This document shows, one piece after another, positions 24,780 through 63,625 of a stretch of DNA of 64,000 bases. The notes beneath the pieces were generated by a model. That model was not told the origin of the DNA. It did no database searches and saw only the letters and a list, made by a program, of their open reading frames with translations. Every line of letters begins with the position of its first letter. Position 1 is the stretch's first letter. A program made the translations under genes and the position numbers. Source of the stretch: Paramacrobiotus metropolitanus. Its lineage: Eukaryota > Tardigrada > Eutardigrada > Parachela > Macrobiotidae. The stretch covers positions 310,001-374,000 of the forward strand of contig NW_026570317.1 of the NCBI RefSeq assembly GCF_019649055.1, given 5' to 3'.

Positions 24780-26755
24780 TTACCCATCAGAATTACTGGT
24801 TAGCTGTGTAGGTGTCGGTCCAGTTGTGGCTGTGTGGGTGTCGGTCCAGTTGCAGTTGCTGGCCTGCACAGTGAATTCGACGCTGGCCCCGCCGTCGATG
24901 GATGGAGTAGTGCGCAGATGGCCAGCCCAAGGAAACTACAGCAAGTCAGTTAAAAAGACGAGTGAGGACAAGGAAATGCATGAGCGTTTGTAGGCAGTCC
25001 ATTTACCTCAAGGCAGCCTGCTTGTTCGCAGAAATCGTACATAGCTTTGTCGACCGTTTGATACTCTGTGGTGTTGCCGGTAACCAGCACCGTCACGTCG
25101 TGAACATCGTTCCAGGTGCAGCCGGCATCCTTCAGGATGGCGCGCGTGAATTTCATGATCTTCATGGATTCGTTGTAGGTGCCGCGCGTGCCGAAGCTTT
25201 TTGGGTCGTTGAGGTCGTGGAAGGCGCGAAGTGAGCTCAAGTACAGGATCGGACCGACACGGACGGCGTATCTGACAATAAGAGTGAATAACAGCACAAT
25301 GAAGTTATGCTTATCATGAAAAGCAGAATAAAAGTAATAAGAAAAATAATCGGAGAGGTTCGATCTGCACGCAAATTACGCTCGATATGTTATACAAAGT
25401 AACTTTATTTTCTTACACTGTCTGTGCCGGGTCCCGACAGTTTGATAAGCGTACATTTCTCAATTGCTACTATGGAAGGTGTAGAAGCGTTTTACTGACC
25501 AGGGCAGCGTCACCGGCCCCCCTCTCAGAAAAATTTCATTTTTTGCAGGGTTGCAGAGTAACACTAGGGTATGCTTAAAAAAATAGTTTCATCTGCCATG
25601 GTCAGTAGGGCGTGGCCAAACAGAATTTAGAAGTTTAAAATTTGCTATGTTATAGCCTATGGCCAATGCATTGCTTCGTACTTTAAGCACATTTACGATT
25701 TAATACAAACCACTTCACGTGGTATCGTACGAGGCTTATGTGCGCTAAATGTTCTCGGCTTCCCGTTTCTGAAACGGGCTAGTAGATGACAGTTAATTAT
25801 TTTTAAGTTTAGAGATGATCTGTAGGTCCTCATTACCTCGGTTTTCGTGCTAGCGGTATGTGATAAAAACTGATAGCGCGAATGGAAATGGAAGTATTTA
25901 CACAATTACACCTGCTAATCTAGCTCTTACAAAATATTGTTAAGTACCACATACAGGCCGCTTCAGAAACAAAAACGGTTACCGGGGAATATTGGACACA
26001 CATAGGCCTCGTACGATAGCGCATTCAAGTGGTTCGTATTAATTCGTAAATGTGCTTAAAGTACGAAGCAATGCATTGGCCATAGGCTATAACATAGCAA
26101 GTTTGTAACTTCTAAATTCTGTTTGGCCACGCTCTGCTGACCATGGCAGATGAAATTATTTTTTTAAGCATACCCTAGTGTTACTCTGCAATCCTGCAAA
26201 AAATGAAGTTTTTCTGAGAGGGGGCCCTGTAACGCTAGCCTGGTGAGTAAAGATTATAAAAAATGCTGTTATTTGGTGAAGCTTTTCCATGCCGGCTGGT
26301 TCACCAGAATTTTGGTTAGCCAGAAAATCAGTCAGACGGTCCGACTGAAAGAAAGCAATCATCTCAACTGCATGCTTTATTTTTCAATCAATCATCTGAT
26401 TGAAAATATTTTACCAGTGACACTTCGGAAATTTGTGGTAATTACTGAATCAGTGCAGTACCTAGATCGTAATTATTTTATTTGCACTTAATACTAAGAA
26501 GACAGCTTACTGCCACGGCTTCGTAGGGTCTTTTGGGGGCGCCGATGTAATCGGGACCTTGTACTTCCGTGCGGTACAGCATTCGGACGGAGGACGATCT
26601 TCCGCGTCAGCCACTGAAAAAGACGGCATCAAACTGAGTGCAACCATGTCAGTCGAAGATAATCTATCAACCGCTACTAGGCGCTACATTGACAAAGGTC
26701 ACTTACTGTTCAAAGCTTCGACAACTAGTAAAGCGGCAAAGATATACAATTGCAT
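24780..26755 (-). CDS. Secreted RidA-like protein, gene A (single domain)
   Basis: Four minus-strand exons (26707-26755, 26511-26613, 25007-25271, 24780-24935) give 190 residues. Exon 1 is a signal peptide (MQLYIFAALLVVEALN). Exon 2 is a linker with the Cys pair (PPSECCTARKYKVP) ending in KPW. Exon 3 begins YAVRVGPILYLSSLRAF, matching the first strands of RidA/UK114, and continues with AGCTWNDVHDVTVLVTG, the helix and strand that form the trimer core in this family. Exon 4 is FPWAGHLRTTPS followed by SVEFTVQASNC and a Thr-rich tail longer than in the other copies. RidA enzymes hydrolyse reactive enamines and imines, but these are cytosolic. Here secretion and six cysteines suggest a changed role. 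Intron 2 is 1.24 kb long because it holds a foldback element. Exon 1 nearly matches that of gene B, which faces the other way. Confidence 0.85.
25491..26251. mobile_element. Foldback element inside intron 2 of gene A
   Basis: Two inverted arms of about 250 bases (about 25491-25745 and 25995-26251) share phrases such as TTTGCAGGGTTGCAGAGTAA, AGCCTATGGCCAATGCATTG and CTTCGTACTTTAAGCACATT. Outer ends are TTTACTGACCAGGG on the left and CCTGGTGAGTAAA on the right. The unique centre is about 250 bases. No coding capacity is seen. Genes C and F lack this insert in the same intron. Confidence 0.8.
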
Positions 26756-26863
26756 GTTGGAAAACTGGGAAAACTTCGCAACCTGAGGAGGAAAATAACT
26801 AAATATCTCAAGTGGAACGTCGAAAACGAATCAACTGATGAAATCGAACGTATTTTCGAACCG

Positions 26864-26929
26864 TTTATAAATGCACTTTCTAAGCTGATAAAGAGTTATG
26901 TCAGCAGTGGAATGTCCCGAAACTGCTGA
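26864..26929 (-). promoter_or_regulatory. TATA-like box and inverted TCAGCA/TGCTGA motif of gene A
   Basis: Read toward gene A, TCAGCAGT...ACTGCTGA (26901-26929) is followed by GCATTTATAAACG (TATAAA core within 26864-26871), about 110 bases before the start codon. The same arrangement is present upstream of all seven paralogues, which is the main reason to consider it functional. Confidence 0.6.
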
Positions 26930-27832
26930 TTTTTCAGGCACCATCGCTGAGAATCTTCAAAAATTCACTGAACACTTTACCAACAGTTAAAGTTCCAACA
27001 ACCACTCCGGAAATTGTGGGTATCGATAGCCGGAATGATATAGACCACTTACCATCAGCATGGCTGGTTACGGCCAATCGGCGAGCAAAACTGCTTACAA
27101 AAGTACAAACCGCCACCGCGAATATGCGATCGCCGCGAAAAAGATGTCTGCAAAATTGTCAAGTGGCGTTGTTCTCAGAGCAGCCGGGTGACCAACTGCA
27201 CTGGCATTAAAACGTATTCCGTAAAACGTGTAATTGCCGTAACAACTAACAGGCACCATCCGGTATGGTACTGATAGTGTGCCACGGATAATTTTATTAA
27301 GAAAATAAATAAGCTGATACGAATTGTCAAATTTATCGATGTTTTGATGTTCAGGAGTTTCGTTACTTCGTTGAGATTTTCTAAGTTTATTGGCGGATGC
27401 CAAGGTTTTCTACACACTATATAAAAATAAACAGAAGACTTTGTCACATAAATGTAAACTTACGCGGTAACTGCATAAACATCAAGTCGAAATTTATAAA
27501 AACTGTGCCACAAGAACATAAAAATGGTACAAAAAATAACGGGGTTGCTACGATAACTCGTACATTACTAGGATAATCAGAATCTTTCATAATTACCTGT
27601 TGTGAAACACCGGCTGGCCGTCGTAATCAAATTACGATGAAAGCCCCTCATCTTTTCGTATACCTAATTCATTGAATATTATTACTTATTTAGGATTCTA
27701 AGGACTAAGCGTGTATTGTATTCTGTATTCCACAACATTCTATAACATTTATTATGCTCTATATAATATAATAAGGATTCACTATCGTATCTTAATTACT
27801 TAATGACTTATAGGGGAAATTTAACTGCTGAG

Positions 27833-27994
27833 GCCAGCACTCCCTATACCTGATGACGTCACCCGCCTGGAATGTGACGTTACGGCAATACATGCGGGTA
27901 AATCAGGCGCGGTGCATAAGCATCATGTTTAGCAACAACGTAAAACTCCAGCCGGGTAACGGCAGCAAGTATAGGGAGTGCTGGCCGCAGCAGT
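27833..27994. mobile_element. Inverted-repeat element between genes A and B
   Basis: The left end CCAGCACTCCCTATACCTGA and the right end AGTATAGGGAGTGCTGG are complementary, and the arms continue with CACCCGCCTGG / CCAGCCGGGT. A related element is at 44458-44624. Confidence 0.7.
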
Positions 27995-29156
27995 TGAATT
28001 CCGGCTGTATTTTTATTGACATTTATTACTATCATTTATGCAAAATTTCCTGCATTGCCTTTTTCTGTCGACCGTTATTTAAATGCTTTCCCAAGCAGGA
28101 GTCGTGAGTAAGAGCCGAAAGAGGATGCAAAATATCTTTGATATCGTCGTCAACGTACCGATAGAATACTTTAAATACCTTGATAGAATACTTTCATAGA
28201 ATACTTTGAGAGAATACTTTGATTTTGTAAAGTTGTACACGGCGTACTTCGTAACTGTGGAGTACTCCAATAAACACAAATCAAAATTTATTACGTAACG
28301 CGGTTTGCTTATAATAATATGTAGTATATGCGTACTGTATCGTACATGCTATAAAATTTTTTTTATTTCTGCTATCATTACCAAATTATCCTGTGTTATC
28401 TTTACGCGGCAAAGCTTATCCACGTGCTTATGTTTATGTATTACACTTTGTATCTACGTACATTTGAACGGGTACCTAACTGAAATCTACTGTGGTGCGC
28501 AGTATTCAGTCGAAAAGAGTGGAAAGACTTCTGCCGCCTGGCAAATGTGGTAATAAAAACATACACTATTTACTATTAAACCTAAGTTATAACGGTTCCA
28601 TGCAATTACATTGAAGCTTCCTGCGATTCCTTTAATTAACAAGGTTTTTGAGTATTCTTGGCTGATATGTTGAATTCTTCTGCGCTATTGAGCTCAGCGG
28701 AAAATACTGGAAAAAACGGGATGCCGGTATGTCCGGCAAAGGGTTCTGAATGATAATACATAGTTTGCATCCGCTAATACTTTTTTGTTAATATAATAAT
28801 AAGTAGCGCATCATCAGTATCTTCCCTGGTGGTAGCTGTTAGACCAATTATACATTTCACGGAAAAATTTATAATGCCAATGCGGTTGGTCACCCGGCTG
28901 CTTACGGAGAACAACACCACTTGACAATTTTGCAGACATCTTTTTCGCGGCGATCGCATATTCGCGGTGGCGGTTTGTACTTTTGTAAGCAATTTTGCTA
29001 GCCGATTTGCCGTATCCAGCCATGCTGATGGTAAGTGGTCTATATCGTTCCGGCTATCGATACCGACGATTTCCGGAGTGGTTGTTGGAACCGTTTTTAC
29101 TGTTGGTGAAGTATTCCGTGAATTTTCGAAGATTCACAGCGATGGTGCCCGAAAAA

Positions 29157-29230
29157 TCAGCAGTTTCGGGACATTCCACTGCTGACATGGCTACCGGTAT
29201 TTATCAGCTAGAAAGTGCACTTTTAAACGG
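29157..29230 (+). promoter_or_regulatory. Inverted TCAGCA/TGCTGA motif and degenerate TATA box of gene B
   Basis: TCAGCAGT (29157) and ACTGCTGAC (to 29186) match the motif of the other copies. The TATA position reads CTTTTAAACGG (29220-29230) instead of TTTATAAACG, so B may differ in basal promoter strength. Confidence 0.5.
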
Positions 29231-29336
29231 TTGGAAAATCCGTTCGATTTCATCAGTTGATTCGTTTTCGACGTTCCACTCGAGATATTACAGTTATTTT
29301 CTTCCTCACGTTGCGAAGTTTTCCCAGTTTTCCAAC

Positions 29337-30842
29337 ATGCAACTGTATATCTTTGCCGCTTTACTAGTTGTCGTAGCTTTAAACAGTAAGTGACCTTTGT
29401 CAATGTAGCGCTTTAGTCAGTTGATCGATTATCTTCGGCTGACACCATCAAACTGAATTTGATGCTATTTTTCAGTGGCTTACGCGGATCACCCGTCATC
29501 CGAATGCTGTGCCGCACGGAAATACAAGGTCCCGATTTCATTAGCGGTGGCGCCCCCTAAAGACCCCAAGAAGCCGTGGCAGTAAGCTGTGCTATTAGTA
29601 TTAAGAGCATGCGAGGTAAATACGATATGGGTACTGCACTGATACAGCAATTTCCAAAAATTTCGTAAATGTCACTTGTTTGCACCGAGCGCGAAGCGCG
29701 AGGTGCTTCAATTAACTGATCGTCAAGACTACACGCTCCATAGCAGAGCATATACTTCCACAGCAGAGCTTGTCTGACGCCAAAAAGCGCGTACGTAACC
29801 CTCTTTCCTATGGGATATGTGGAATTCCACACATCGATTCCATTTCCAGTGGTACGCACGATTTCACGTGTTACTGGAAATGCATAACAGTTGCTCGCGC
29901 TCGGTGCAACGATGTGGTTATCAACCAACATTAGTAAAATATATTCATTCAGATGATCAACTGGATAATAGAGCATATAGTTGAGATGGTCGTTCTACTC
30001 AGTCAGAAAGTCTGACTGACTTTCTAGCTAACCAAAATTCTGGTGGACCATCCGGTATTGGCAAAGCTCACCAAATAAAAGTATTTTTCTTTCAACGGTA
30101 CTGAAGAAACCGTTTCTGAATCTTCCATAGTAGCAGCTTAGAAATGTGCTTAATTGTTAGTCTAAGAACATACAGTTCTAAAATATCAAACTAAACGGTT
30201 TAGAGCTTCCATATTAGCAGTTGAGAGATTTGTTTAACTGCCGAGGCGTGCTATAAACAGTGTAAGAAAACAAATTTCTAAAATATCTAACGTAATTTTT
30301 GTGCAGAGGGAACCTCACCGGTTGCTTTTCTTTTGACGTTTATTCTGCTTCTCATGGTAAGCATACCTAACTGTCTTGTGCCGTGATTATCTCTGTTTAT
30401 CAGATACGCCGTCCGTGTCGGTCAGATCCTGTACTTGACCTCGCTTCGCGCCTTTGACTCCTTTGGCAATCGCACCATCATTCCTGAGCGGGGCACCTAT
30501 AAAGAATCCCTGTGGATTATGGACCTGGCATATCAAATTCTCGATCAAGCCGGCTGCCACTGGACCAATGTGCACGATGTGGAGATACTGGTCACCGGCG
30601 GTTCTGAGGAGTACCCCGAGGTTGACAAAGCCATTAACAGATTCTGCGAACTGGTAGAATGCGCTGGGGTAAATTAACTGCGTACATGCATTTATTTGGT
30701 CGCTATACTCTTTTTAACCGATTTACCGTAGTTTCCTTGGGCTGGCCATTTACGCAGTACTCTACCTCTTCCTGGCGGCGCCGCTGTCGAATTCAAGATT
30801 CAGGCCAGCAACTGCCGCTGGAGCGACAGGGGTAACCAGTAA
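29337..30842 (+). CDS. Secreted RidA-like protein, gene B (single domain)
   Basis: Four exons (29337-29385, 29476-29581, 30404-30668, 30732-30842) give 176 residues. Exon 1 (MQLYIFAALLVVVALN) is a signal peptide almost identical to that of gene A. Exon 2 carries HPSSECCAARKYKVP and ends KKPW. Exon 3 starts YAVRVGQILYLTSLRAF and contains AGCHWTNVHDVEILVTGG and a late FCELVECAG. Exon 4 is FPWAGHLRS followed by AAVEFKIQASNCRWSD and stops after GNQ. The junctions are phase 1, 2 and 0, as in all the paralogues. The end reads CAGGGGTAACCAGTAA, close to the donor that leads to a second domain in gene G, so B may have lost a second domain. B is the head-to-head partner of A, and about 0.5 kb of their upstream sequence is an inverted repeat. 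Confidence 0.9.
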
Positions 30843-33213: not shown

Positions 33214-33801
33214 ATGCGAAGTATAGTCTGTAAAGAATAATTGCTGTAGTGTACTAACTTTACTTAACCGACCAAGTGACATAATTATATGTATCTGAAA
33301 GTAGCTAAAATTAATTAGTAAGTTGTATATTATATATCTGGAAGTACGCAAAATTAACAAGCAAGTACGTACAGTATACAGTAGGTTTATTGTATGTTTA
33401 TTTCAACATATACGGTATTAATAAGTTTTGATTTTTATTGTAAGTACAGTACCACATATTAATAAGTAAACATAGTACGTTTCGGAATTTGGGTACCATA
33501 AGGGATACGTTCAGGACGTCTTTTTCAGAAACGTTTGCTGTAAATTACAGACTGCAGTACACTTTTTGGGTAAAATTTTCCAGCTCACTTACCCTGTACT
33601 TTTTCCAGCTCGCTACTGTGTTAAAAGTACCTCATTGTCAGAAAAGCGCACAAATAATGTGTCGTATTTATGTGCTAAATAGTTCGATTGCTAGTACGAT
33701 TATCAATGTACGAGGATCATTCGTTTACATATTGTTTTGATTAAAATTAAACTAATACACTTGGGTGCAATGGTGCCAACTTGCGGATTTTTCTTGTGCT
33801 T

Positions 33802-34323
33802 ATGCAGATGCCTAACTTGTGCTGCGTTCCTGAGTGTACTCATTTGCGCGTTGGGGATCGCCCGGATCCAGAAGACCGGGAAACGGTCCTTTTTCAGTTT
33901 CCCCGCGAAGCCGAGAAGGCTGCAGTATGGCTTCATTTCATAAAACGGGCAGATCTGCAGATAAAAGAACACACGAAGATGTGCCGCCGACATTTCCTTC
34001 CGCATCTGGTCCGCCGGTTCAATACATTTAAAAGGAAAGACGGATCGATTGATCGTACTCCTTGCAAACCTGTTTTGGACGATGATGCCGTACCAAGTAT
34101 TCTCCCTCCTGAAAGCAGCGACACATCAATCGTTTATCCGCCCCCGCGCCGCTCCTTACAGGAGAAGTATTCATCAGCGACAAAGCACAAACAGCCATCC
34201 ATAACACGTGCTACAACCGCAGATGATGCAGGGTCACTGGCAGGACTTCGAGCTGCTTATGCATCACCTTCCTTATTCCTCAACAAACTTGCAGTGGATA
34301 GCTCTTCCGGACAGTGCAGCTGA
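33802..34323 (+). CDS. THAP-type zinc finger protein
   Basis: The frame begins MQMPNLCCVPEC and carries the C2CH signature of a THAP domain: CCVPEC at the N-terminus, FQFPRE, VWLHFIKR with the conserved tryptophan, then KMCRRHF giving the final C-x2-H. THAP domains bind DNA and occur in animal transcription regulators and in P-element-type transposases. After the domain come a Pro-rich segment (VYPPPRRSLQEKYSS) and a stop after GQCS, about 173 residues in all. The first ATG in frame is at 33802. A pyrimidine-rich stretch ending in TGCAG directly precedes the second ATG (33808), so an upstream exon is possible. No transposase domain was found next to it. The gene sits between RidA-like genes B and C. 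Confidence 0.7.
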   Translation: MQMPNLCCVPECTHLRVGDRPDPEDRETVLFQFPREAEKAAVWLHFIKRADLQIKEHTKMCRRHFLPHLVRRFNTFKRKDGSIDRTPCKPVLDDDAVPSILPPESSDTSIVYPPPRRSLQEKYSSATKHKQPSITRATTADDAGSLAGLRAAYASPSLFLNKLAVDSSSGQCS

Positions 34324-35690: not shown

Positions 35691-35691
35691 T

Positions 35692-36877
35692 CTACTTCCA
35701 GTACTGGCAGCTGCTGGCTTGTACTGTCATTTCGACTTTGGCGCCGCCGGCGATAGCTGGAGTATTGCGGAGATGGCCAGCCCAAGGAAACTACAAAAAG
35801 TCGGTTAAAAGGGAGACTTGCCAAGAAAAAATACGCGCACAATGCGAACAACTCGAGTCGCACTAGTTTTTGTAATGTGTTTAGCGCAACGGCAAAAACC
35901 GGTTTCCGACCACTGCGAAGCAGTGTACCACTCTTACGCAAATCCTTAACGGGGCTTAGTACGAAGAACTTTGCCTCTTAAGTTGGTCTCAATAATAATA
36001 TGTAATCAACCTACATCACCGCAGCCGTTATCACGCCAGAACTCGTTCATGGCTTCGTCAATCAAGGGGAACTCCTCATGGGGGTCGCCGACGACCAGCA
36101 CCGTCACGTCGTGCACATCATGCCAGGAGCAGCCGGCGTCCTCGAGGATGCCGCGCGTCAGTTTCATGATCTGTATGGCTTCCGATTTGGTGCCGTTCGT
36201 GTGGTTATCGAGGTCGGAGCTGTCGTTGAAGGCGCGCAGCGAGGTAACGTATAGGATCTGGCCGACACGGACGGCGTACCTGATTAACAGAGAAAACCAC
36301 AGCAGAATAAATGCACAATCACCATCGGAAATAGACTTAAAGTCAGAAGAAAAAATCCGTTAGGTATCAAAAAATAACTGCTTTCATACAGCATGGTCGC
36401 GTTTTAACGGCTACATAACTGCCCACAGCTGCGGTCTAACAGCAACGGAGCGACCGTTTAAACTGTAAATCAACATCTTGCAAGTAATTTCTCCATATTA
36501 TCAGTAATCACTAACAGAATGAGTACAGGTGTAGTCCCCAGACCTTATTTACGTCTTTGGCACTTTAGGAAAAAATTCACTTACTGGACCGGAGGGCCTT
36601 GAAGTTGCTTAACTAACACAGAATTACTTGCGTTGTAGAGCTGCCGTGGCCGTGCGCTGCAGCATTCGGACTGGTCAGGTTGGGCGTGGTCAGCAGTAGC
36701 AGTCGGTGTGCTGCTCTCCGCCACTGCAAACCACAGCATCATGTTAAATGAGCGTCAACATCAGCCAAAAACAACAGAACCATTTATGGAAGTGATACAT
36801 TGAAAAGGTCACTTACTGCTCATAGCTGCGACAACTAGCAGACCAGCGAAGATACCAGATAGATAGCATAGCTTCAT
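35692..36877 (-). CDS. Secreted RidA-like protein, gene C (single domain, one cysteine replaced)
   Basis: Four minus-strand exons (36817-36877, 36585-36723, 36015-36279, 35692-35790) give 187 residues. The signal exon is longer than in its relatives (MKLCYLSGIFAGLLVVAAMS). Exon 2 is a longer Thr/Ala-rich linker with DQSECCSARPRQL and ends in GPPV instead of KPW. Exon 3 starts YAVRVGQILYVTSLRAF and includes AGCSWHDVHDVTVLVVGD. The position usually occupied by FC reads EFWRDNGCGD, so one of the six recurrent cysteines is Trp here. Exon 4 is FPWAGHLRNTPA, then KVEMTVQASSCQYWK and stop. All splice phases agree with the paralogues. C is head to head with D. The missing cysteine would leave an unpaired partner if the usual disulphides form. 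Confidence 0.85.
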
Positions 36878-36978
36878 GTTGAAAATTTGGAAACCAGCAA
36901 AACGAAACAAGTTAAATATCACGGGTGGATCTTTGCAAACGCATGCACTGACACAGTCTACGAGATTTTGCAAAGCGC

Positions 36979-37044
36979 TTATAAATGCGTTTCCCGAGCT
37001 GATCAAAATGTTAAGTCAGCAATAAAATATTCTCAGACTGCTGA
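36979..37044 (-). promoter_or_regulatory. TATA-like box and inverted motif of gene C
   Basis: Read toward gene C, AATCAGCAGTCTGAG...TTGCTGAC (37016-37044) is followed by GCATTTATAAGCG (36976-36988), about 100 bases upstream of the start codon. Confidence 0.55.
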
Positions 37045-38953: not shown

Positions 38954-39020
38954 TCAGCAGTTTCAGGATAATCTGTTGCTGACATAACTTTTTGATCTGT
39001 TTGGAGAATGCATTTATAAA
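38954..39020 (+). promoter_or_regulatory. Inverted TCAGCA/TGCTGA motif and TATA box of gene D
   Basis: TCAGCAGTTTCAGG...GTTGCTGAC (38954-38983) is followed by GCATTTATAAACG (TATAAA within 39013-39020), about 115 bases before the start codon at 39135. Confidence 0.6.
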
Positions 39021-39134
39021 CGTTTTGCAAAATCTAGTAACTTCCATCAGTTGATACGTTCGCTAACATCCACAGAAGAGACTTTTTTAACGTTTTCATT
39101 CCTTGTCACGCTTTGTAATTATCTACTTTTCACC

Positions 39135-41347
39135 ATGAATTTGATTATCCTCGCTGGTCTGCTGGTCATTGCAGTTACGATCAGTAAGTGACCTTTATTA
39201 TTGTTGCGCTTCCGTGAGTAGATATCAAGCATGCTGGTGCTGGCTGAAATCATGCACACTGAATTTGCTGCTATGGCTTGCAGTGGCTCAACCTGACCAT
39301 CATTCGCAGCCCGAGTGCTGCCAATCACCGAAGTACTACACGGGCATCAATTCTACACGAGAAGACCCCAAAAAAAAAGCCGTGGCAGTACGTTAATTTA
39401 TTTACTCTAAAGCTAGCAAAGCAGTTACATCATGGGTCCGTAGAAGTAAGCATTCGATAAATACCGAAAGCGCCGCAGACATTATTTACCGTACTCGCTT
39501 AACCATGCCGTACCGGTCGTTTGCAAACCGTTTTCAAAAGGTAATACTTATATGATGGCAAAATGAACATAAGAATTTAGATGGCTCATTTACTGTTCTT
39601 CTTTCTTGGTCACTTAGAAATTGCGTTTGCATCCGTAAGAAAAGAGAGCAGAAAAGAGCAGTTTAGAAGTTTCTTAACGTGACTGATGACTATCCTGTAT
39701 AAAGGCTACCCTATATGACTACCGTGTATAATTTATGAATGTTAAACTTTTAAGCGATAATATTGAATATGCGACCGAAATACAGTAAACCGATAACTCG
39801 GAATACAGAATATAAATATATTTGGTCAGCTGAAAGCCTTGACGACTTTTTCCTTTGAATTTACGTCGCCCGTACAGAATATGATCGTGTGCTTCATGGT
39901 TTTCTTTGCTAACCAGTTCCGCCATCCGTGTCGGCCAGATCCTGTACGTGACCTCTATGCGCGCCTTCGTCGACATTGAACGCCACAAAGAAATAATCCC
40001 GGGTGGCACCTCTAACGAAACCCTGCGGATCATGGATTTGACGGACCAGATCCTCAAGACAGCCGGTTGCACGTGGAACGATGTACACGATGTGGCGGTA
40101 CTGGTCGTCGACAACCATGCTAACTTCACTGACGTTAAGAACACCATGCATAATTACTGCACTGAAAACTGCACTGGTGTAAGTTCACTGCAAGTTTTTT
40201 GTTGCCACTCTTCTTAGTAAACGACTTGCCGTAGCTTCCTTGGACCGCTCATTTTCGGACTGCTAATGCTCTCAGCAACAACGCCACCGTAGAATTCACA
40301 GTACAGGCCAGCAACTGCGACTGGAAAGGCGAAGGTAATGCTCAGTCAATATCGCAACTCCGCCGGGACGATCATTTGTATATTATTGATAAGCCGTACA
40401 TTAAACATAATGCTGTGGATTACAGTGGCTGACCCGACTGATAAAAGCACGCAGCCCGAATGCTGCAGCGCACGAAAGCGCGTTGTCCCAATTCCTTTGT
40501 TGGATAATCTGTTTAAAGAATCTCACAAACCGTATCAGTAAGTTTTTTTTAAGAAGCACTAAATGTCAACGAAGCAGTTATGATCAGGGGATTGCATTCA
40601 AGCAATAATTATCGAAAAGAGCTTAAATAAGACTTGCAAAATGATTGCATCCGCATTCCAAATAGGACAGTATAACTTGGATGGACGTTAGACGATCGTC
40701 ATCGCGTTAAATCGTTTTCCAGGCTGACCAAAATACTGCTGACTTGGCACTGACTTCGATAACCAGATAAACTCTTTTCTTCCACGTTCGTTTAATATAC
40801 TGCTTTTTTGTCTTGAATGATATCATCTGAGAAATTTGTGTAACTGTCCTGAGTCCACACTAGACAGTATCATAGCCGCGTTATAACTGCTTCCGTTAAT
40901 CAGGGGAGCCGTCCGTGTCGGTCAGATCCTGTATCTTAGCTCGGTGCGCGCCCCCGAACACATCGACGTCACAATCGCCCCCGACCGCTTGAATACTAGC
41001 ACTTACCGACAAGCCTACTGGATCATGGGATGGATGAACGCCGTCCTCCACGAAGTCGGCTGCACCTGGAACAACGTACACGATGTGGCGGTGCTGGTCA
41101 CCGGGGGTCCCCAAAACTATACCGACGTTGACAACGCCGTGAAAGATTCCTGCAAAGAATTTTATACCAAGTGCACTGGGGTAAGTGATTGCATTTTTTC
41201 CCTGGTTATTCCTCCTTTTTAAACGGTTCACTGTAGTTTCCTTGGGCTGCTCATTTGCGCAGTGCTCCATCTCTCGTCGACAGCGCAACCGTCGAATTCA
41301 CAATGCAAGCCAGCAACTGCCAATGGACTGGCATGGCTAACCGTTGA
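39135..41347 (+). CDS. Secreted two-domain RidA-like protein, gene D (one-base insertion in exon 2)
   Basis: Seven exons are visible: 39135-39183, 39284-39387, 39917-40178, 40235-40334, 40426-40537, 40904-41180 and 41237-41347. Exon 1 is the signal peptide (MNLIILAGLLVIAVTI). Exons 2-4 make the first domain (QPECCQSPKYYTG; SAIRVGQILYVTSMRAF; AGCTWNDVHDVAVLVVD; LPWTAHFRTANA). Exon 4 has a donor, GAAG|GTAATG, that leaves phase 1 and fits exon 5, which begins TGGCTGACC and lacks a signal peptide. Exons 5-7 repeat the domain (QPECCSARKR; GAVRVGQILYLSSVRAP; FPWAAHLRSAPS) and end TGMANR. Exon 2 has nine A residues before GCCGTGG where gene E has eight, so it is 104 instead of 103 bases and the frame breaks. 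Without the extra base the product would be about 337 residues. It is either a recent pseudogene or a homopolymer error. Confidence 0.8.
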
Positions 41348-47037: not shown

Positions 47038-47039
47038 AA

Positions 47040-50454: not shown

Positions 50455-50521
50455 TCAGCAGATTAAGGATATTATATTGCTGACATAAAGTTTTGACCAG
50501 CTTGGAAAATATATTTATAAA
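50455..50521 (+). promoter_or_regulatory. Inverted TCAGCA/TGCTGA motif and TATA box of gene E
   Basis: TCAGCAGATTAAGG...TTGCTGAC (50455-50484) is followed by ATATTTATAAACGG (TATAAA within 50514-50521), about 110 bases before the start codon. Confidence 0.6.
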
Positions 50522-50631
50522 CGGTGAGCAAAATCCAGTAGCGTTCATCACTTGCTAAGTTTATAAAGATTCACCGGAGATATTTGAGGTTTATTCTTTA
50601 TCACGTTTCGTAGTTTTCTTTGCTTTCCACC

Positions 50632-52874
50632 ATGAAATTGATCATCCTCGCTGGTATACTGGTTGTCGCCGCTACGAGCAGTAAGTGACCTTTGTTAGCG
50701 CTTCCGTGAGTTGATTAGTTGTCTCTGGCTTAAACCTTTCACACTCAATTTCATCCTGTTAACTGCAGTGGCTCAACCTGACCAACATCCGCAGTCCGAA
50801 TGCTGTCACTTACAGAAGTACCACTTGGGCATAAATTCTACGCTGAAGGATCCCAAAAAAAAGCCGTGGCAGTAAGTTATTTCTTTTTCTCTAAGAACCA
50901 GCAGAATATTTGCGATCATCGGTAGAACGCATTTGATAATTACGAGTACGAGTATTACCGAGAGCACCACAGACATAACTTACTGTTCCCGGCTAACAAT
51001 ACCGTATCGGTCTCTTGCAAACCGTTTTCAAAAGATAGCGTTAGGTGAACATAAAATAAAATAGAGAGTTTTGATGATTATATTTCACTATTCTTCTTTC
51101 CTGTTCACTCAGGAATTGCATTTGTATCTTTAGAAAAATGAAAAGCAGTTGAGAAATTTCTTAGCGTGACTAGTGGCTACCCTGTATGATAGCAATTGCT
51201 TATGGTAAAACTTACAACGATAACATTCACCATGTGGCCGAAATACATTGAAACGATGTCTCATAATAACGAACATAGTTTTATTTGCTCAGTTAAAAAC
51301 CTCACCGATTTTTCTTTTTGACTTTGTGCTGGCACAGATGCTAATCGTTGTGATGTGATTTTCTTTACAAACTAGTTCCGCCATCCGCGTGGGCCAGATC
51401 CTGTATGCGACCTCTATGCGCGCCTTCGAAGACATTGAACGCCACAAAGAAATCATCTCCAAGGGCGGCACCCACAACGAAACACTGCGGATCATGGATT
51501 TGACGGGCCAGATTCTCCATGCAGCCGGCTGCACCTGGAACGATGTGCACGATGTGGTGGTGCTGTTTACCGACAGCCCTGCCAACTTCACTACGACCTA
51601 CGAACAAGTTAACGCTACCATGCACGAATTCTGCGACAGACCTGAAAACAACTGCTCTGGTGTAAGTTCGCTGCACATTTTTCCTTGGTACTCGTCCTTT
51701 TCATCGGTGTACCGCAGTTTCCTTGGACCGCCCATTTTCGGACTGCAAAATCTATGAAAGACAACGCCACCGTCGAATTCACAGTACAGGCTAGCAACTG
51801 CGACTGGAAAGGCGAAGGTAATGAGTAGTCGAATTCGCATTCCCGCGAGTCGACCGACTGACTTTGCCTGACATCCCGCACATTCAGTATCATGCTGTGG
51901 ATTGCAGTGGCCGACCGTATTGACAAGGATAAAAGTTCACAGCCCGAATGCTGCAGCGTATCAGAGCACAGCGTATCAAAGCACATTATGGGCCCGAATC
52001 ATGAGCTGGATAAGCTAATTGAAGGCTCCAACAAGCCATATCAGTAAGTTATTTCTTAGCGCCAAAATAATGTCAATGACGCAGTGACATTCAGTGGACC
52101 GTGCCAATCAGTGTTTCCCGAAAGTGGGTATGGATTACTTGCAAAATGTTTTCCCTCAGACATTTTATAGTGAAATATATAGCACGATACAGCATACCTG
52201 GTCGTTCGTTCGTAGCTTTCTTTTTGTCTTGAAACGTCAGACAGGTATACTGACTGACGAAAACTGTAATAAACTTTCGTTGACATAATATAGTTAATTA
52301 TTAGATAACTTCGATAATTTGTTCCATGTTCGTTTTCCACTTCGCTTTCGCGTCTTCGATGGTAGCAGCTGAGAAATTTGTGTAACTTACAACAGTTGGC
52401 GGTGTCATCGCTTTGTTGTGATTGTTTCCGTTAATCAGAAGCGCCGTCCGTGTCGGACAGATCCTATACCTGAGCTCGGTGCGCGCCCCCGATCACGTCG
52501 TCAACGGCTTCGAAAACACCGACCGCTTGCGTAGCACGAACTTGCAAGCCGAATGGATCATGCGACAGTTGCACAATGCCCTCGAGAATTTCGGATGCAG
52601 GTGGTATAATGTTCACGATGTGACGGTGCTGGTCACCGGGGGCCCCGACGAATACCACCAAATTGACACAGCCGTGAAAGATTTCTGTAAACAACCAATC
52701 TTCCAGTGCGCTAGTGTAAGTTGATTGCAGATGTTCCTTGTTCATTCCCATTTTTTAACCGACTTATCGTAGTTACCTTGGGCTGCTCATTTGCGCACTG
52801 CTCCATCTCTCACCGGCAAGGCCACCGTTGAATTCACATTGCAAGCCAGCAACTGCCATTGGACAGAAAAGTAA
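50632..52874 (+). CDS. Secreted two-domain RidA-like protein, gene E (intact)
   Basis: Seven exons (50632-50680, 50769-50871, 51376-51661, 51718-51817, 51908-52043, 52439-52715, 52773-52874) add to 1053 bases, an open frame for 350 residues. Exon 1 is the signal peptide (MKLIILAGILVVAATS). Domain 1: QSECCHLQKYHLG, SAIRVGQILYATSMRAF, AGCTWNDVHDVVVLFTD, ENNCSG, FPWTAHFRTAKS, SNCDWKGE. Domain 2: QPECCSVSEHSV with a longer linker, SAVRVGQILYLSSVRAP, FGCRWYNVHDVTVLVTGG, LPWAAHLRTAPS, SNCHWTEK and stop. The exon 4 donor GAAG|GTAATG is phase 1 and fits exon 5. If it were not used, a TAG would follow within four codons, so a short single-domain form is conceivable. No signal exon lies between the domains. 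Unlike D and G it has no minus-strand partner, and transposable elements occupy the region upstream. Confidence 0.85.
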
Positions 52875-54530: not shown

Positions 54531-54670
54531 AAAACTACTGCTGCATTTTAGTTCACATTCCAAATTTTACTGATCAGCATCACTGGGCTCGCTTCGTCGG
54601 TCTGCACACTGTCGTTAGATTATCTCATTCACTTCCTTCGATACCTGGCGTCAGCGTTTTAGTATATCAT

Positions 54671-56082: not shown

Positions 56083-56337
56083 TTACTGCATATACCTGAC
56101 AGCGTGAAAGTGGGGAGAAAAGTTAAAAGCGTTCTGCAAAATTGCCTGATAACAAACATCATCGCGCCAGGTGTCATCCAGAAGCCGAGCACGGGGTTTC
56201 GGTCGTGAGCTGCGATCATCGGATTTCGGAGCACAAAAAACAAAGGTAATGTTAAGGTTTAGTGGAGTGACCCACTTCGACTCAAATAATTCCAGGAAAA
56301 CATAAGATATCTGTTGTCTTTGTGTCCCGATTCGCAT
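56083..56337 (-). CDS. Unrecognised open frame
   Basis: A minus-strand frame of 84 codons includes ISYVFLELFESKWVTPLNLN and LLDDTWRDDVCYQAILQNAF. The composition is protein-like but it has no recognisable motif and no clear splice partners. It could be an exon of an unknown gene or chance. Confidence 0.2.
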   Translation of the reverse strand: MRIGTQRQQISYVFLELFESKWVTPLNLNITFVFCAPKSDDRSSRPKPRARLLDDTWRDDVCYQAILQNAFNFSPHFHAVRYMQ

Positions 56338-56454
56338 TGCCGATCTGCCTCATGCTTGGCATGGTACTACCGGTAATTTGTAATTTGTACTTAGCACGTA
56401 CTACTAATTATTGATGATACATGCCTGTGAATGTTCTGGCTACGCCATTGTGCA

Positions 56455-57345: not shown

Positions 57346-57467
57346 GCTGCTGATAAACTACACCGCCTCCGATGGAACCGGCGATAAGTCATTGTTGCAG
57401 CGATTCTACCGTTCGAATTGTCCAACGAAAGGGCGCTCATGTGATATGCTGATGAAGGACGGTTCGA

Positions 57468-57961
57468 CTAAACGATTCTGCTGCTTCGCTTCCGCTGTGC
57501 CCAAAACGCCCCGGGCAATGCCAAACGGGTTTCAGCAATAACCCACGACATCTGGCGCCGGTACGCGTGATACAGCGAGTGTTTGATAAGGTCACGGCTG
57601 TGCATGCGAGCTGGGCGCTGGTGTAGGCAGTAGTGCTCGCCCATGGATCTATGCCAGGTATCTATCTGATGGTCGTTTTGACTATTGTATTTCCCTTTTT
57701 GTCCGAAGAATTTCAGCCAGGTAGACGGCAAAAAAAGTACGTACCGTTGAGTTATCTAAACTGCCTTGTACATTGATAATACTATTATATTCCAGGGGTA
57801 GGTTCCTAATTGGGCTAATTTTACCTAAAGAATTGCCTGAACAGAAAATAGTACTTGGGCAGATCAAGCATTTACCAGTAAGGCTATCGTTTGAAAGAAA
57901 ACGAAAATTTCCTGATTTCAAGCCGCGTGATGTACCTTGGCTAATAAACAAATGTATCTAA
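57468..57961. other. Unassigned open frames on both strands
   Basis: On the minus strand 57468-57700 a frame reads SRDLIKHSLYHAYRRQMSWV and WVIAETRLALPGAFWAQRKR. On the plus strand 57773-57961 another reads LILPKELPEQKIVLGQIKHL and ends KFPDFKPRDVPWLINKC. Both look more protein-like than random but have no recognisable family, and I cannot choose between exon and transposon remnant. Confidence 0.25.
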
Positions 57962-58189
57962 TGTACCTTAGCTGTTACTATGATCCAAAGTCTATACTTA
58001 ATTGAGTGCTAACTAAATACATCTTCAATAAGCCATGCTCCGCAGTGACTTCGCATTGTACTTGATACTGTCACGCTCATTCACTACAATAAAAAAGGCT
58101 TTACTATGACTGCTCTACTTCATGATATGATTTGCGCTAAACCTTGGTCGTCAATTACAGTCCCTATACTTAGTGCGTCACTGACTGGT

Positions 58190-58300
58190 TATTGCATGGC
58201 CGACAGGTTAGTGCGTGACCTATAAGTTATTGTAACCAAAAGACAGACAAAAGTCCCATTTTCTGAACATGGAGGACCTTCGCTTCCGTCGACAATGACG
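58190..58300. repeat. Partial copy of the 54.3-kb palindrome family
   Basis: GTTAGTGCGTGACC and, further on, CATGGAGGACCTTCGCTTCC match the right half of the palindrome at 54323-54530 with several changes. The left half is not preserved. Confidence 0.65.
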
Positions 58301-58550
58301 CTTCTTATGTCTCAATTCATCTTATTGTGTTTCTTGCTAATAAACCCGATTCATGCATAAATTCAGAACGTAAACTCAAAAGCAAGTTAGTAACCAAGCA
58401 GAAACAAAAATGGCGCTTATGCAACATTTAAAACGATGATATGTGGCGGAAAAGGATGCGCAGTAAGCGTTTGTAGTAATTTAGTGGATGTCTTTTGAGA
58501 CGAAGCTGACACATGTTGGAAAGGCAAGCCAACCTCGTTTATCACCTGAA

Positions 58551-59804
58551 CTAATGACCCTCCGGCTTCCAGTCGCAGTAACTGGCCTGTACTGAGAATT
58601 CCACCCAGGCGTCACCGGCAAGAAGCGGAGCAGAGCGCATATGGGCAGCCCAAGGAAACTACGGTACATTAGTTAAAAGCAGGGATGACAATGGTAAACA
58701 TGCAATAAACGTACACCAGAGCAGTTGTTTTCAGGTTTAGCGCAGAATTTTTTCATGGCAATTTCAATGATGGGGAAATCTTCGGGGCCGCCGGTGACTA
58801 GAGCCGTCACATCGTGCACATTGCTCCATTTGCAGCCGGCTTCATTGAGGATCTGGCCGGTTAGTTTCATGATCTGCAAAGCTTGACTGTAGGTTCTGTA
58901 CTGGTCGGAGATTGTGCGGTTGGCCAAAGAGGTGAAGCCGCGCACCGAGGTCACATAGAGGATTTGGCCGACACGGACGGCATACCTGATTAACAGGAAA
59001 ATTACAGCCCAAAAAATACGGTCAGTATCTGCACAGTTAAAAAGTCAGAGGTAATAATCCGTAAGGTACAACATTATCAGCAAATATAATTATGAACACT
59101 ATTTCAGAACACTACGTTATTTCGTCAACATACTGTTCGAGAACTACTATAAAGTTATAAACAACTGCTACAGTACCCGGTAATCACGCCCAGTGTGAAA
59201 AGCCACACAAATTTCTAAAAGATTAGCAATCTAATATTTATTGTAGCGCGGAACGATTTTCTGAATGAACAACGGAGAAAAATAGTTTTACATGGGGCGA
59301 TCGGCACCATTGTTTAATGTCGGCTGATTCATAAGAATTTTAATGTGCCACTCAACCAGTCTGGCGGACCGACAGAATGACAACAACCATCTAAACTACT
59401 TGCTTTGTTTTGCTGTCAACACCTATCTGATTGAAAATAATTTCAGCGCGATCTCTTTAGTAGTCCCGTTGACTATTGCATAAGTACAGTGATTACAGTT
59501 CCGTGATCATAACTGCTTGGTTGGCACTTGATGCTAAGAAAACAGCTTACTGCCATGGCTTTTTCGGATCTTTAGGTGGCGCCACTATCGGTGAAATCGG
59601 GACCGTGTACTTCCGTGCGCTACAGCATTCGGACTGAGGGCTGTGATCCAGGTCTGCAGCCACTGCAATCCATAGCATCATACTGAATGTGCATGAAATC
59701 AGCCAAAGAAAATCGGTCTACTCGCGAAAGTGCGACATCAACAAAGGTCACTTACTGCTCATAGCTGCGACAATCAGCAGACCAGCGAGAAGAATTTGTT
59801 TCAT
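58551..59804 (-). CDS. Secreted RidA-like protein, gene F (single domain, one-base insertion in exon 2)
   Basis: Four minus-strand exons (59756-59804, 59551-59663, 58715-58985, 58551-58658) correspond to the paralogues. Exon 1 is a signal peptide (MKQILLAGLLIVAAMS). Exon 3 begins YAVRVGQILYVTSVRGF and contains AGCKWSNVHDVTALVTGG, KKFCAKPENNCSG. Exon 4 is FPWAAHMRSAPL, then AWVEFSVQASYCDWKPEGH and stop. Exon 2 should read PQSECCSARKYTVP, but a run of four C residues stands where three are needed. The exon has 113 bases (112 would keep frame) and the reading frame runs into TAG at the Cys-Cys site. Gene F is therefore a pseudogene or the base is a sequencing error. Without it the product would be about 179 residues. 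F faces gene G head to head. Confidence 0.75.
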
Positions 59805-59930
59805 GGTGAAAACTAGGAAAGCTACAAAATGCGACTGAAAGTTTTGTTAAATACCTGAAGTAGAACATAGAAAATGGTTTCAACTTTCAACTGATGGAAA
59901 ATACTGGATTTGGCAAAGCGTTTATAAATG

Positions 59931-59987
59931 CATTTTCCAAGTTGATAAAAAAATTATGTCAGCAAAAGAATATCCTGCAACTGCTGA
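59931..59987 (-). promoter_or_regulatory. TATA-like box and inverted motif of gene F
   Basis: Read toward gene F, CTCAGCAGTTGCAGG...TTTTGCTGAC (59959-59987) is followed by GCATTTATAAACG (TATAAA within 59931-59938), about 130 bases before the start codon. Confidence 0.55.
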
Positions 59988-60289
59988 GCTTTGGTTCCAT
60001 TGCTGAGAATCTTCGAAAAGTCACGAAACACAATACCAAGAGTAATATCAATTCCGATAACCACTTCGAAAATTTTCCGGTATGGGTAGCCGGAACGATA
60101 TAGACCAGACGCCTGGAATTCGCTGGGCTGTTGTAAATGAGCTCATGAAATAGCAGACGCAAGTACTAACCGCCACCGCGAATAAGTGATAACGATATCA
60201 CCGAAGTTTTCAAGTGGTGTTGTTCTCAGTAAGCAGGCTTGTGACCAGTTTCATTAGAATGGTTCCGTAAAAATAGGTATGACTGGTGC

Positions 60290-60900
60290 AACACTTATTT
60301 TTGGGTCTGATATTGATATTGATAATGTGTGCAGAAATAATAGGTAATAAAGTAAATTAGCGATTCCAAACAAAGCAAAGGAAGCACTACTCGGTCGGTT
60401 GCAGTTTAAACCAAGAGCGGATTAATTTCTCGGTTTCTAACAATGTCTTCGGTTTACATACATAAATCGATCATCATATTTTGAAAGCAGTACTAGAAAA
60501 AACATTTTTCAGTACCGTGGCTGCTGTCGCAGGGTTTATGCGCTAAAAACGTTTCGCTAAAATGACAAGAGCGTAAGTACTATTGCTCAAAATGCTGTGT
60601 ACATAAACTTTTTTTTGCTGTACTGGTTCGAGTGGCTGTGAAGTTTATGTAGCCGCCTCATGGGGCCTTTTGTCATCAGTTTTTAACAATGCTACACTGG
60701 CAAAAGGGTATCAATAATATCATGAATGTGAGCAAATACAATATAGGTATGATATTGTAGTTCAGAATTGCTTTCTGCAGCGGCAAAAAACTGTAAGTTC
60801 CTCGAAGCCTCAATATAAGAAATAATGTGGTGCAGTGTTATACTTGAACTGTGTTCCCATACGAGGAAGCAATAATTTCCATCCGCTTATTTTACTGATA
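60290..60900. other. Intergenic core of the F/G pair
   Basis: No gene was found. From about 60.88 kb the sequence becomes alignable by eye with the upstream blocks of D and E. Confidence 0.45.
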
Positions 60901-61272
60901 ATATAATAATCCCCGCCACAGTATCAGTATCATTGCCCTTTGCCCCGACAATAACGGTTACGTGATGTTACATTAATTCTATATTTTACGGAATAATACT
61001 ATTGAAGTTGGTCGCACGGCTGTTTACTGAGAAGCACTGGGAAAATTCAGTGATATATTTCCCCGGCAAAGATCGCATATCCGCAGTGGCGGTTTGCACT
61101 TGTGTAAGCTATTTTGCTAGCCAATTTGCAACAGCCAAGCAGATTTCTGGCGAGTGGTCCATATCTCTGGCAACTGCTTCCTACAGTTTTCTGAGTGGTT
61201 GTCGGAATTGGTAATACAGCTGGTTTTGTATTCCGTGAGTTTTTAAAGATTCTTAGAGCTGAAACGGAAAAA

Positions 61273-61336
61273 TCAGCAGTTTTCGTAAATTCCACTGCTG
61301 ACATAACTTTTCTATCGGGTTCAAAACATTTATAAA
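61273..61336 (+). promoter_or_regulatory. Inverted TCAGCA/TGCTGA motif and TATA box of gene G
   Basis: TCAGCAGTTTTCGT...ACTGCTGAC (61273-61302) is followed by ACATTTATAAACGC (TATAAA within 61329-61336), about 110 bases before the start codon. Confidence 0.6.
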
Positions 61337-61445
61337 CGCCTTTAGAAATCCAGTATGTTCCATCAGGGATTTCATTCTCAAACATACACTAGAGATATTA
61401 TACTTCGTTCCTTGCCACATTTCGTAGTTTTCCGGGTTTTCCATC

Positions 61446-63625
61446 ATGCAACTCATAATTTTCGCTGGCCTGCTAGTTGCCGCAGATATAAGCAGTAAGT
61501 GATCTTTGTCGATGTCGCCCTTCCGCGAGTTAATCAAATGTCTATCTGGCTGATATCATGCATATTCAGTATGTTGCTGTGGATTGCAGTGGCTGCAGAC
61601 TTGGGTCCAAGTCCGCCGTCCGAATGCTGCAGCGTACGGAAGTACAGCATCCCGACTACTCCATCGGAGTCCCTGCCTGGAAACGCTGCAAGCCCGTGGC
61701 AGTAAGTTGTTGTATTAGCACAATGTCCCATAGAAGCGGTTATCCACTATGAACTGTGAAAATGCAATCATTTCGAAAATACCTTAAAATTCCCAAGCAA
61801 ACTGTTTTCAACCAGACAATAATCTTGATACTAAAATCAAACATACGTAATTCAGACGGCTATTCTCATTCATGTTGGACCGTTAAATCGTTTCGCTGGC
61901 TGAAACAATTATCAGGGATGGACCTGCCCTTAATAATTAGGGTCACCAGATAAAACCAATCCTCTTCCATGTCAACTTCTGAATTTGGTTTTCTATTTTT
62001 ACTAGCAGTAGTTGAGAAATTTGGGTAACGATTTGCTCTGGGCATGACCACCCGTACACCAGTATTTTATTAAGATAAAATCGATACTATACAGCATGCG
62101 GCCAAAAGAAATCAATATCCTAAGCTATAGATCATAACAATAAGTCGCCATAACTCGCCGGTACTCATTATAACCGCCAGAACATTAGAGATTTGTTTAT
62201 GTGATCTTTTTTCTGCTTGAAATGCTGACATTTGCATCGTGATTTGTTCTGTTAATCAGATACGCCGTCCGTGTCGGCCAGATCCTGTATGTGACATCGC
62301 TGCGCGCCTTCGCCTCTTTCACCCACCGCGACACCATTTTCAGCGTGGGCAACACCAATGCCGAAGTCACCCAGATCATGATGTTGATTAACAACATCCT
62401 AATGGAAGCCGGCTGCACCTGGAGCAACGTGCACGATGTAGAAGTCCTGGTCACCGGTGACCCCGACGACAAGTTCCCCGCCGTCTACAAAGCCATGGAC
62501 AGGTTCTGCCGTGCTTTAAATTGCACTGATGTACGTCGGTTTCCTGTTTCTTTTTATAACTACCATTTTTAACTGACGTATTGTAGTTTCCTTGGGCTGC
62601 TCATTTCCGCACTGCTGAATCTCTTGCCGACAACGCCACCGTTGAGTTCGCAGTACAGGCCAGCAACTGCGAGTGGGAACACAAGGGTAACCAGAGATTC
62701 GCGCGAGCAACAATAATGGCTCACTTCTCCACCATGTGTCAGATTCGTCTCGAATTACAGCCATATCATTAAACTGCAGCTAGATTATTACTGCATATTC
62801 AGTACGATGCTGTCGATTGCAGCATCTCCCCAGCATAAGGGTTTACAGTCCGAATGTTGCGGCCCTTTGAAGCGTTACCCTGTTCTTTCTTCGTTAGTGG
62901 AATCGACTGAAAGCGCCCCAAATCCGTGGAAGTAAGTTATTTTCTTATGGTTAGCACCAAATGCCAACGAAGCAGTTGTAACGCGCGTAACCACTCTGTA
63001 TAAAAGCACTTCATTATGGTTTTATTCGATGTCCGATAATATGCACGATGCGCCGAAAGGAAAAAATGTCCTAAAATACAAAACTTAATTTTATTTGCAG
63101 ATCGATAATTTTCCTGGAATTTTTAACCTGTTAGAAATGATGACCGTTTCTTTTTTGTGATGTGATGATTTCTGTGTTAATCAGGTATGCGGTCCGCGTA
63201 GGCCAGAACCTACACGTGAGTTCGGTGCGCGCCTTCAAAACCTTGACCGACCGCACCATCATCAGTCCGGGAGGCGCCTACACCGAAACCAAACAGATTA
63301 TGACGTTGACGGAAGAGATCCTCAGCAAAGCCGGCTGCAGCTGGAATAATGTGCACGATGTGGCACTACTGGTCACCGGCGGCCGCGAAAACTACCCTGT
63401 AATTGACAAGGCCATAAACGATTTCTGCGGTGAATCTGCATATAATTGCTCTGGTGTAAGTGGATAGAATTGTTCCTTTGACCAATCTCCTTTTTTTAAA
63501 CCGACATTTTGCAGTTTCCTTGGGCTGCCCATTTGCGCTCTGCTCCATCTCTCGCCAACCAAGCGACCGTCGAAATCGCAGTACAGGCCAGCTATTGCCC
63601 CTGGAAACCTGTGGATCACGAGTAG
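61446..63625 (+). CDS. Secreted two-domain RidA-like protein, gene G (intact)
   Basis: Seven exons (61446-61494, 61590-61701, 62260-62530, 62587-62686, 62823-62931, 63185-63455, 63515-63625) add to 1023 bases, an open frame for 340 residues. Exon 1 is the signal peptide (MQLIIFAGLLVAADIS). Domain 1: PPSECCSVRKYSIP, YAVRVGQILYVTSLRAF, AGCTWSNVHDVEVLVTGD, RFCRALNCTD, FPWAAHFRTAES, SNCEWEHK. Exon 4 ends at CAAGG|GTAACC in phase 1. Domain 2: LQSECCGPLKRYP, YAVRVGQNLHVSSVRAF, AGCSWNNVHDVALLVTGG, DFCGES and NCSG, FPWAAHLRSAPS, SYCPWKPVDHE and stop. Exon 4 is exactly 100 bases in D, E and G, which supports the use of the same donor in all three. The divergent neighbour is F. Confidence 0.9.

Follow-up and report, generated by a model that had tools for sequence, protein, structure and literature searches.

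The 64,000-nucleotide stretch of DNA analysed here (the window) corresponds to positions 310001-374000 of contig NW_026570317.1 (C97) in the 169.8 Mb, 533-contig genome assembly of the tardigrade Paramacrobiotus metropolitanus, and carries a cluster of genes for putatively secreted proteins of the Rid superfamily. All-frame translation, with exons joined at GT/AG sites, resolved seven genes, denoted A to G, with ten domains between window positions 24780 and 63625, the limits at which genes A (24780, minus strand) and G (63625, plus strand) have their stop codons. Genes A, B, C and F encode one domain each and D, E and G two each; A, C and F are read from the minus strand. Every splice site in the seven models is GT/AG, and the phases recur from gene to gene, being 1 after exon 1, 2 after exon 2, 0 after exon 3 and, ahead of a second domain (D, E and G), 1 after exon 4. 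The seven paralogues, ten domains and shared exon phases of the original prediction, which had been made from the letters of the sequence alone, are hence borne out. Its limits hold in part: the cluster does occupy 24780-63625, but it runs on beyond the window with two further genes, H and I.

The first exon, 49-61 bases in length, encodes in every gene a hydrophobic segment of the type MKLIILAGILVVAATS, the second a short ECC linker, and the third a core that typically reads YAVRVGQILY...VHDV...C.G. The predicted succession of signal-peptide exon, Cys-Cys exon and core exon was found in each of the seven genes, and the core motif could likewise be confirmed, with VRVG or IRVG as well as VHDV in all ten window domains. 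The anticipated short last exon also exists, with an FPW..VEF signature (FPWAxHLRxAPSLxxxATVEFTVQASNC or similar, followed by a stop or by the second domain); however, it aligns to the final beta hairpin and covers more than the last strand to which it had been assigned. The exons were picked by conserved position and phase, and alternative first-exon candidates existed for A, C, H and I, as did alternative second exons for several genes. The reading from ATG to stop is open in six of the seven models, gene D being the exception.

Among the single-domain genes, gene A (24780-26755, minus strand, 190 amino acids) is composed of a signal-peptide exon at 26707-26755, an exon with ECC and the first strand at 26511-26613, a Rid core exon at 25007-25271 and an exon for the final hairpin and stop at 24780-24935, and matches the Pfam profile PF01042 with E 6.4e-5 over the full model and 2.8e-4 over the core exon. 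The corresponding four exons of gene B (29337-30842, plus strand, 176 amino acids) lie at 29337-29385, 29476-29581, 30404-30668 and 30732-30842 (E 2.6e-4 for the full model and 1.3e-3 for the core exon). Gene C (35692-36877, minus strand, 187 amino acids), the mature part of which holds five cysteines, has its exons at 36817-36877, 36585-36723, 36015-36279 and 35692-35790 (E 2.6e-5 and 1.4e-4), and gene F (58551-59804, minus strand, 179 amino acids) at 59756-59804, 59551-59662, 58715-58985 and 58551-58658 (E 1.4e-6 and 6.9e-6).

The two-domain genes, all on the plus strand, append a second ECC exon, core exon and final-hairpin exon to the first set, the stop being placed in exon 7. The seven exons of gene E (50632-52874, 350 amino acids) are located at 50632-50680, 50769-50871, 51376-51661, 51718-51817, 51908-52043, 52439-52715 and 52773-52874; the full model matches PF01042 in two stretches with E 1.4e-13, and its core exons with E 2.7e-6 and 6.2e-5. 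Likewise, gene G (61446-63625, 340 amino acids) has exons at 61446-61494, 61590-61701, 62260-62530, 62587-62686, 62823-62931, 63185-63455 and 63515-63625, with E 4.8e-17 over two stretches for the full model and E 2e-6 and 3.6e-5 for the core exons. Gene D (39135-41347) was assembled from exons at 39135-39183, 39284-39387, 39917-40178, 40235-40334, 40426-40537, 40904-41180 and 41237-41347, and its core exons match with E 8.2e-7 and 8.5e-3. Its exon 2 counts 104 bases instead of 103 and contains a run of nine A, the extra base breaking the frame; this is either a real lesion or a homopolymer or assembly error.

PF01042 matched all ten window core exons (E from 8.2e-7 to 8.5e-3), three of them above the gathering score, and all six full models, gene D being left out, with three of the six exceeding the gathering score. 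In the PDB, gene F retrieved human UK114 (E 4.8e-4), and a family-only profile, built from 11 family domains and no ordinary RidA, retrieved 29 distinct sequences at E ≤0.01 (best 3.3e-8). All of these are Rid-type, with the names RidA, UK114, L-PSP, YabJ, YjgF-type or uncharacterised, the last of which we take to belong to the Rid superfamily. A PDB search (47 sequences) with an alignment that included two ordinary RidA sequences was contaminated, and the family-only search is the one relied on. In the reverse direction, a profile built from 62 sequences of ordinary RidA, of which 60 are bacterial and two are encoded by this genome on contigs C1 and C84, found all 11 family domains with E 2e-8 to 5e-3 in a small target set.

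A fold model of gene B, in which exon 3, intron 3 and exon 4 were read as one frame with stops read through, reached a mean predicted local distance difference test (pLDDT) value of 71.7 and gave 137 Foldseek matches at E ≤0.001. The best 50 of these 137 are all Rid/YjgF-type, including one uncharacterised entry that is presumably so, with a best E of 1.7e-6 and template modelling (TM) scores by target of 0.61-0.80. Structure comparison places the product of exons 3 and 4 in the Rid fold, in agreement with what had been proposed. By its profile matches, the family belongs to the Rid superfamily and falls outside the RidA subfamily in its TIGR00004 definition.

The two ordinary RidA genes provide a reference for the descent of the family. 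In both, a phase 2 intron splits the Ser codon of PYS just ahead of HAV or HAI; in the family, a phase 2 intron splits the Gln codon of PWQ just ahead of YAV. This agreement in position and phase makes a good case for descent of the family from an animal RidA-type gene. A tree was built from 16 family domains (with the copies on contig C3, described below, entered once and the second domain of gene H left out), the C1 and C84 proteins and five of 62 bacterial loci. A branch supported at 100/100 separates all 16 family domains from the rest; it is about 5.5 changes per column long (2.66 and 2.85 on either side of the midpoint root), the bootstrap not having settled. Together with the changed active-site residues, the 100/100 branch supports the earlier claim of a new branch. 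The second domains of D, E and I group together (support 100/95), so that these three genes probably stem from one two-domain ancestor, and the tree gives no resolution on where gene G stands relative to it.

Several features point, indirectly, to the secretory pathway. A hydrophobic first exon in the same phase, signal-like by its hydrophobicity, is present in all nine cluster genes (A-I). Each domain contains six cysteines (five in gene C), as compared to one in the C1 protein. The six mature proteins carry 19 N-glycosylation sequons against 8.4 expected from shuffles, and cytosolic C1 has none. From hydrophobicity, sequons and cysteines we infer that the family is exported from the cell. 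The location described for the RidA subfamily in eukaryotes, cytosolic or organellar, would not apply to the family, judged by the hydrophobicity of the first exon only.

The second ordinary RidA, located at about positions 1090-2440 of C84:77500-81500, keeps PPAR and also has a signal-like first exon. Its C-terminus ends in sequons and a hydrophobic tail, features that may mark a RidA with intact active site that is exported or anchored in a membrane.

Protein searches recovered at least 21 core exons genome-wide, 14 on C97, five on C3 and one each on C78 and C16, and a longer query returned the same 21 as a lower bound; the family comprises about 16 genes. Ten of the 14 core exons on C97 lie inside the window and the other four at most 20 kb beyond it, making up the two-domain genes H and I, of which H has a frame break in its second domain. 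Contig C3 holds, at 679-732 kb, five family genes that are almost the same as one another, three of them plus-strand and two minus-strand. Their core exons are identical or differ by at most one amino-acid change, and the region upstream is about 77% identical between the copy L006 and either L009 or L010. The combination of near-identical core exons and diverged upstream DNA suggests conversion, or else strong constraint on the last exons.

Ratios of non-synonymous to synonymous change (dN/dS) were computed for the core exon by the Nei-Gojobori method, without a significance test, in 15 pairs. The C3 pairs gave 0-0.15 (one of the ten being undefined), and the others 0.27 (first domains of D and H), 0.45 (first domains of D and E), 0.47 (first domains of E and H), 0.53 (A and B) and 0.82 (second domains of D and E). 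The ratio is below 1 in all 14 of the 15 pairs for which it was computable, and the loosest pair is the sole one between second domains.

The upstream DNA is conserved as well. Genes A-I can be aligned with one another over approximately 500 of the 700 bases that precede their ATG, with a pairwise identity of 0.54-0.81. In the window, such DNA extends over about 26760-27260 for gene A and 28840-29336 for gene B, with matching stretches before C-G. Pattern counts over 94 kb, both strands, revealed a TATA-like pattern 27 times, one copy of which precedes the signal-exon ATG by 106-122 bases in nine of nine genes, and TGCTGAC[AT]T 14 times, with one copy 144-161 bases before the ATG in nine of nine. 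A GTGGCGGTTTGTA-type pattern occurs eight times, in every case 353-372 bases before the ATG of a cluster gene (eight of nine genes, H lacking it). The exact joint pattern TGCTGACAT-N-TATAAACG is present seven times in the 169.8 Mb, all at genes A, D, E, F, G, H and I; its reversed control occurs twice genome-wide.

Inside the window, the pattern search placed the block TGCTGACAT...TATAAACG at 26862-26906 (gene A, minus strand), 38977-39022 (gene D, plus), 50478-50523 (gene E, plus), 59919-59964 (gene F, minus) and 61296-61338 (gene G, plus). Genes B and C carry variants, namely TGCTGACAT...TTTAAACG at 29180-29229 (plus) and TGCTGACTT...TATAAGCG at 36976-37021 (minus). The TATA-like pattern is also found upstream of all five C3 genes; it was not found before the C78 and C16 genes, where TATATAA is visible by eye. 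As the promoter lies directly before the signal exon, transcripts very probably begin with that exon; from the TATA position they would be expected to start about 80-90 bases ahead of its ATG. Neither this evidence nor the fold comparison speaks against the original prediction. In most cluster promoters, a TCAGCA and a TGCTGA half-site are also spaced by about 24 bases, an arrangement that we take to be reminiscent of Maf-type sites.

The residues of the substrate pocket bear most directly on function. In salmon RidA, an acetate standing in for the substrate carboxylate is bound by Tyr21, Arg107 and Glu122, and all eukaryotic RidA enzymes are described as having Arg107 (both in the available text of PMC7311433); the corresponding Arg-105 of bacterial numbering is taken as a predictor of deaminase activity in the accessible part of PMC5619798. 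In the tardigrade family all 16 domains compared preserve the Glu122 equivalent together with an HxR and a VHD motif, and a Gln is kept in 11 of 11. The Tyr21 position is occupied by Tyr in two, Trp in eight and Val in one of 11 domains, the first domain of gene D being left out as unreadable in frame at this point, and the SG of SGQ has become TS or SS in 14 of 16. Judging from strand alternation, both His and Arg of HxR would face the pocket side in those readings that keep the core hydrophobic. An ungapped alignment of the last 25 residues had suggested that Arg107 is simply lost; this is weakened, since by strand alternation the invariant His and Arg would then face the core, and since two aligners disagree with it. 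Whether or not the catalytic Arg persists, these residues show the pocket to be changed. With Tyr21 mostly replaced by Trp, SG mostly by TS or SS, and the Arg107 strand rebuilt around HxR, the housekeeping deamination of 2-aminoacrylate is most likely no longer performed.

Gene structure, common promoter, superfamily membership, shared intron and copy number can be read from the DNA itself. What the proteins do is a matter of interpretation, and we lean, with modest confidence, towards exported, disulphide-stabilised Rid proteins in which deaminase activity has been lost or altered and which bind a small metabolite outside the cell. An animal RidA-type gene would have been duplicated and would have gained a signal-peptide exon and cysteines. 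The products would then pass into the secretory pathway, acquire disulphides and serve an extracellular function, presumably still as Rid-like oligomers whose pocket lies between subunits. The remodelled pocket may serve to bind, or perhaps to act chemically on, some small compound of an extracellular fluid, be it an amine, a carbonyl or an imine, and the tandem copies could supply both dose and variety. A more specific form of this proposal is a distinct extracellular branch of animal Rid proteins, its trimer pocket rebuilt around the new invariant residues HxR, VHD and E and frozen by disulphides, so as to perform a new chemistry or sense a new ligand in some secreted fluid, with a promoter dedicated to the array; this we put forward tentatively, as a serious candidate that falls somewhat short of probable.

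A number of results weigh against this interpretation. With regard to fold, the gene B model contains 21 intron-derived residues as an artificial loop, which distorts the exon 4 hairpin and makes the model informative at the level of the fold, not of individual residues. An AlphaFold model of exon 3 alone gave no match in the PDB at E 0.001, RidA (8qok) ranking 15th with E 0.83 and a TM score by query of 0.51, the highest among the matches listed. Gene F, the sole family member tested against the NCBIfam RidA profile TIGR00004, scored 21.1 bits and fails the cut-off of 106.25, which is passed by the ordinary C1 (163.4 bits) and C84 (132.5 bits) proteins. With regard to descent, the intron of the ordinary genes before GVEKEAEQ is absent from the family, the family intron before FPW is absent from the ordinary genes, and the tree is unrooted, so that it does not in itself establish an origin from animal RidA. 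The excess of sequons is unusual for a single protein only in C (P 0.0125) and E (P 0.03). Finally, MAFFT and HHalign (one of four HHalign runs aligned a single column and was disregarded) both align the Arg of HxR to Arg107, leaving the hairpin three residues shorter, and on this alignment the catalytic residue would be kept.

This alignment is the starting point of a different explanation, according to which the proteins are active secreted imine deaminases: the Arg of HxR would be Arg107 in a shortened hairpin, and the substrates would be extracellular imino acids, for instance those produced by a secreted amino-acid oxidase. The joint conservation of this Arg and the Glu122 equivalent in all 16 domains speaks for it, and the FPRDPPAR of the C1 protein has the same spacing from FP to Arg as FPWAGHLR. 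Moreover, Rid proteins speed an amino-acid dehydrogenase reaction in vitro, according to the portion of PMC5619798 available. Still, we consider this explanation unlikely. The distance from Arg107 to Glu122 is 15 residues in 59 of 60 bacterial relatives and 14 in the remaining one, as compared to 12 in the family if the Arg of HxR is counted. The C84 RidA is also one residue shorter in this spacing. Tyr21 is retained in only two of 11 domains, and the HMMER alignments listed that reach Arg107 (gene G; two goat RidA Arg107 mutants) show Trp or Ala there.

Less probable again is a role as a non-catalytic bulk protein of some extracellular material or fluid, such as egg, mucus, cuticle or a gland product, with the Rid oligomer serving as scaffold. 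The high copy number of at least 21 core exons with five near-identical copies on C3, the two-domain forms and the many cysteines and sequons would all suit such a protein. Conversely, the invariance of VHD, HxR and E in 16 of 16 domains and of Q in 11 of 11 seems to go beyond what a scaffold would need, and we regard this role as improbable.

A signal peptide by itself does not establish export, and the proteins could in principle be residents of the secretory pathway or the lysosome; this is very improbable, given that inspection by eye of the six open models found neither a KDEL-like end nor a hydrophobic tail. That the copies are decaying or artefactual and without function, as the frame breaks in D and in the second domain of H might hint, can practically be dismissed with six of the seven window genes open, splice sites retained, the promoter retained in nine of nine and dN/dS below 1 in 14 of 15 pairs.

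The preferred interpretation, an exported and disulphide-stabilised Rid family with altered chemistry, can be set against known Rid systems. According to the available text of PMC7311433, eukaryotic RidA is mostly a single-copy cytosolic enzyme, with few organellar or duplicated exceptions. The family resembles the animal RidA/UK114/14.5 kDa translational inhibitor (PDB 1oni) in PF01042, fold and the Glu122 equivalent, and this genome's own RidA copies in the phase 2 intron of PYS|HAV. It differs in the signal peptide, the six cysteines, the rebuilt HxR hairpin, the two-domain genes and the tandem expansion, as well as in having mostly Trp at Tyr21 and in the loss of SGQ. The bacterial Rid4-Rid7 groups are Rid proteins expected to be without deaminase activity by the Arg-105 criterion (PMC5619798, available part). 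The parallel drawn to these bacterial proteins is by this criterion, and the placement of the family's own Arg differs by aligner. Yeast mitochondrial Mmf1p and plant chloroplast RidA retain an ordinary active site. Their added sequence serves organelle import, in contrast to the signal peptide of the family; in the text at hand of PMC7311433 they appear as Rid proteins with an added targeting sequence.

Rid proteins have also been tied to secreted fluids, UK114 being reported in work on tick saliva (PMC4099483) and in a table of putative mite salivary proteins (PMC6275457). The protein named is ordinary UK114, and the accessible portions of these two sources mention neither a signal peptide nor such a family. 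Word searches of the literature, in which subscription journals were mostly uncovered, showed no report of a secreted Rid family among the titles and beginnings of abstracts listed, at most 20 per search out of up to thousands of hits. If the preferred interpretation is correct, this cysteine-rich, signal-peptide-bearing family of about 16 genes with a changed pocket would represent the recruitment of an ancient detoxification fold to an extracellular role. A set of naturally occurring variants would then be available to probe which residues confer deaminase activity on a Rid protein and what other functions its pocket can take on, and the tissue of production should be traceable through the specific promoter.

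Other genes were encountered in the course of the analysis. Between genes B and C, an open frame on the plus strand at window positions 33751-34323 encodes a THAP domain (Pfam E 2e-12). Exons matching the protein kinase profile PF00069 are present at 1486-3383 on the plus strand and adjoin a repetitive open frame at 975-1376 on the minus strand. A search for antistasin gave 11 matches; those for Chitin_bind_4, TTR-52, destabilase and hirudin found nothing, their controls being empty as well. Elsewhere in the genome, clusters of antistasin-type domains occur at 393.6-396.5 kb of C102, at 1157-1163 kb of C15 and on C115, those on C15 lying amid other cysteine-rich open frames.

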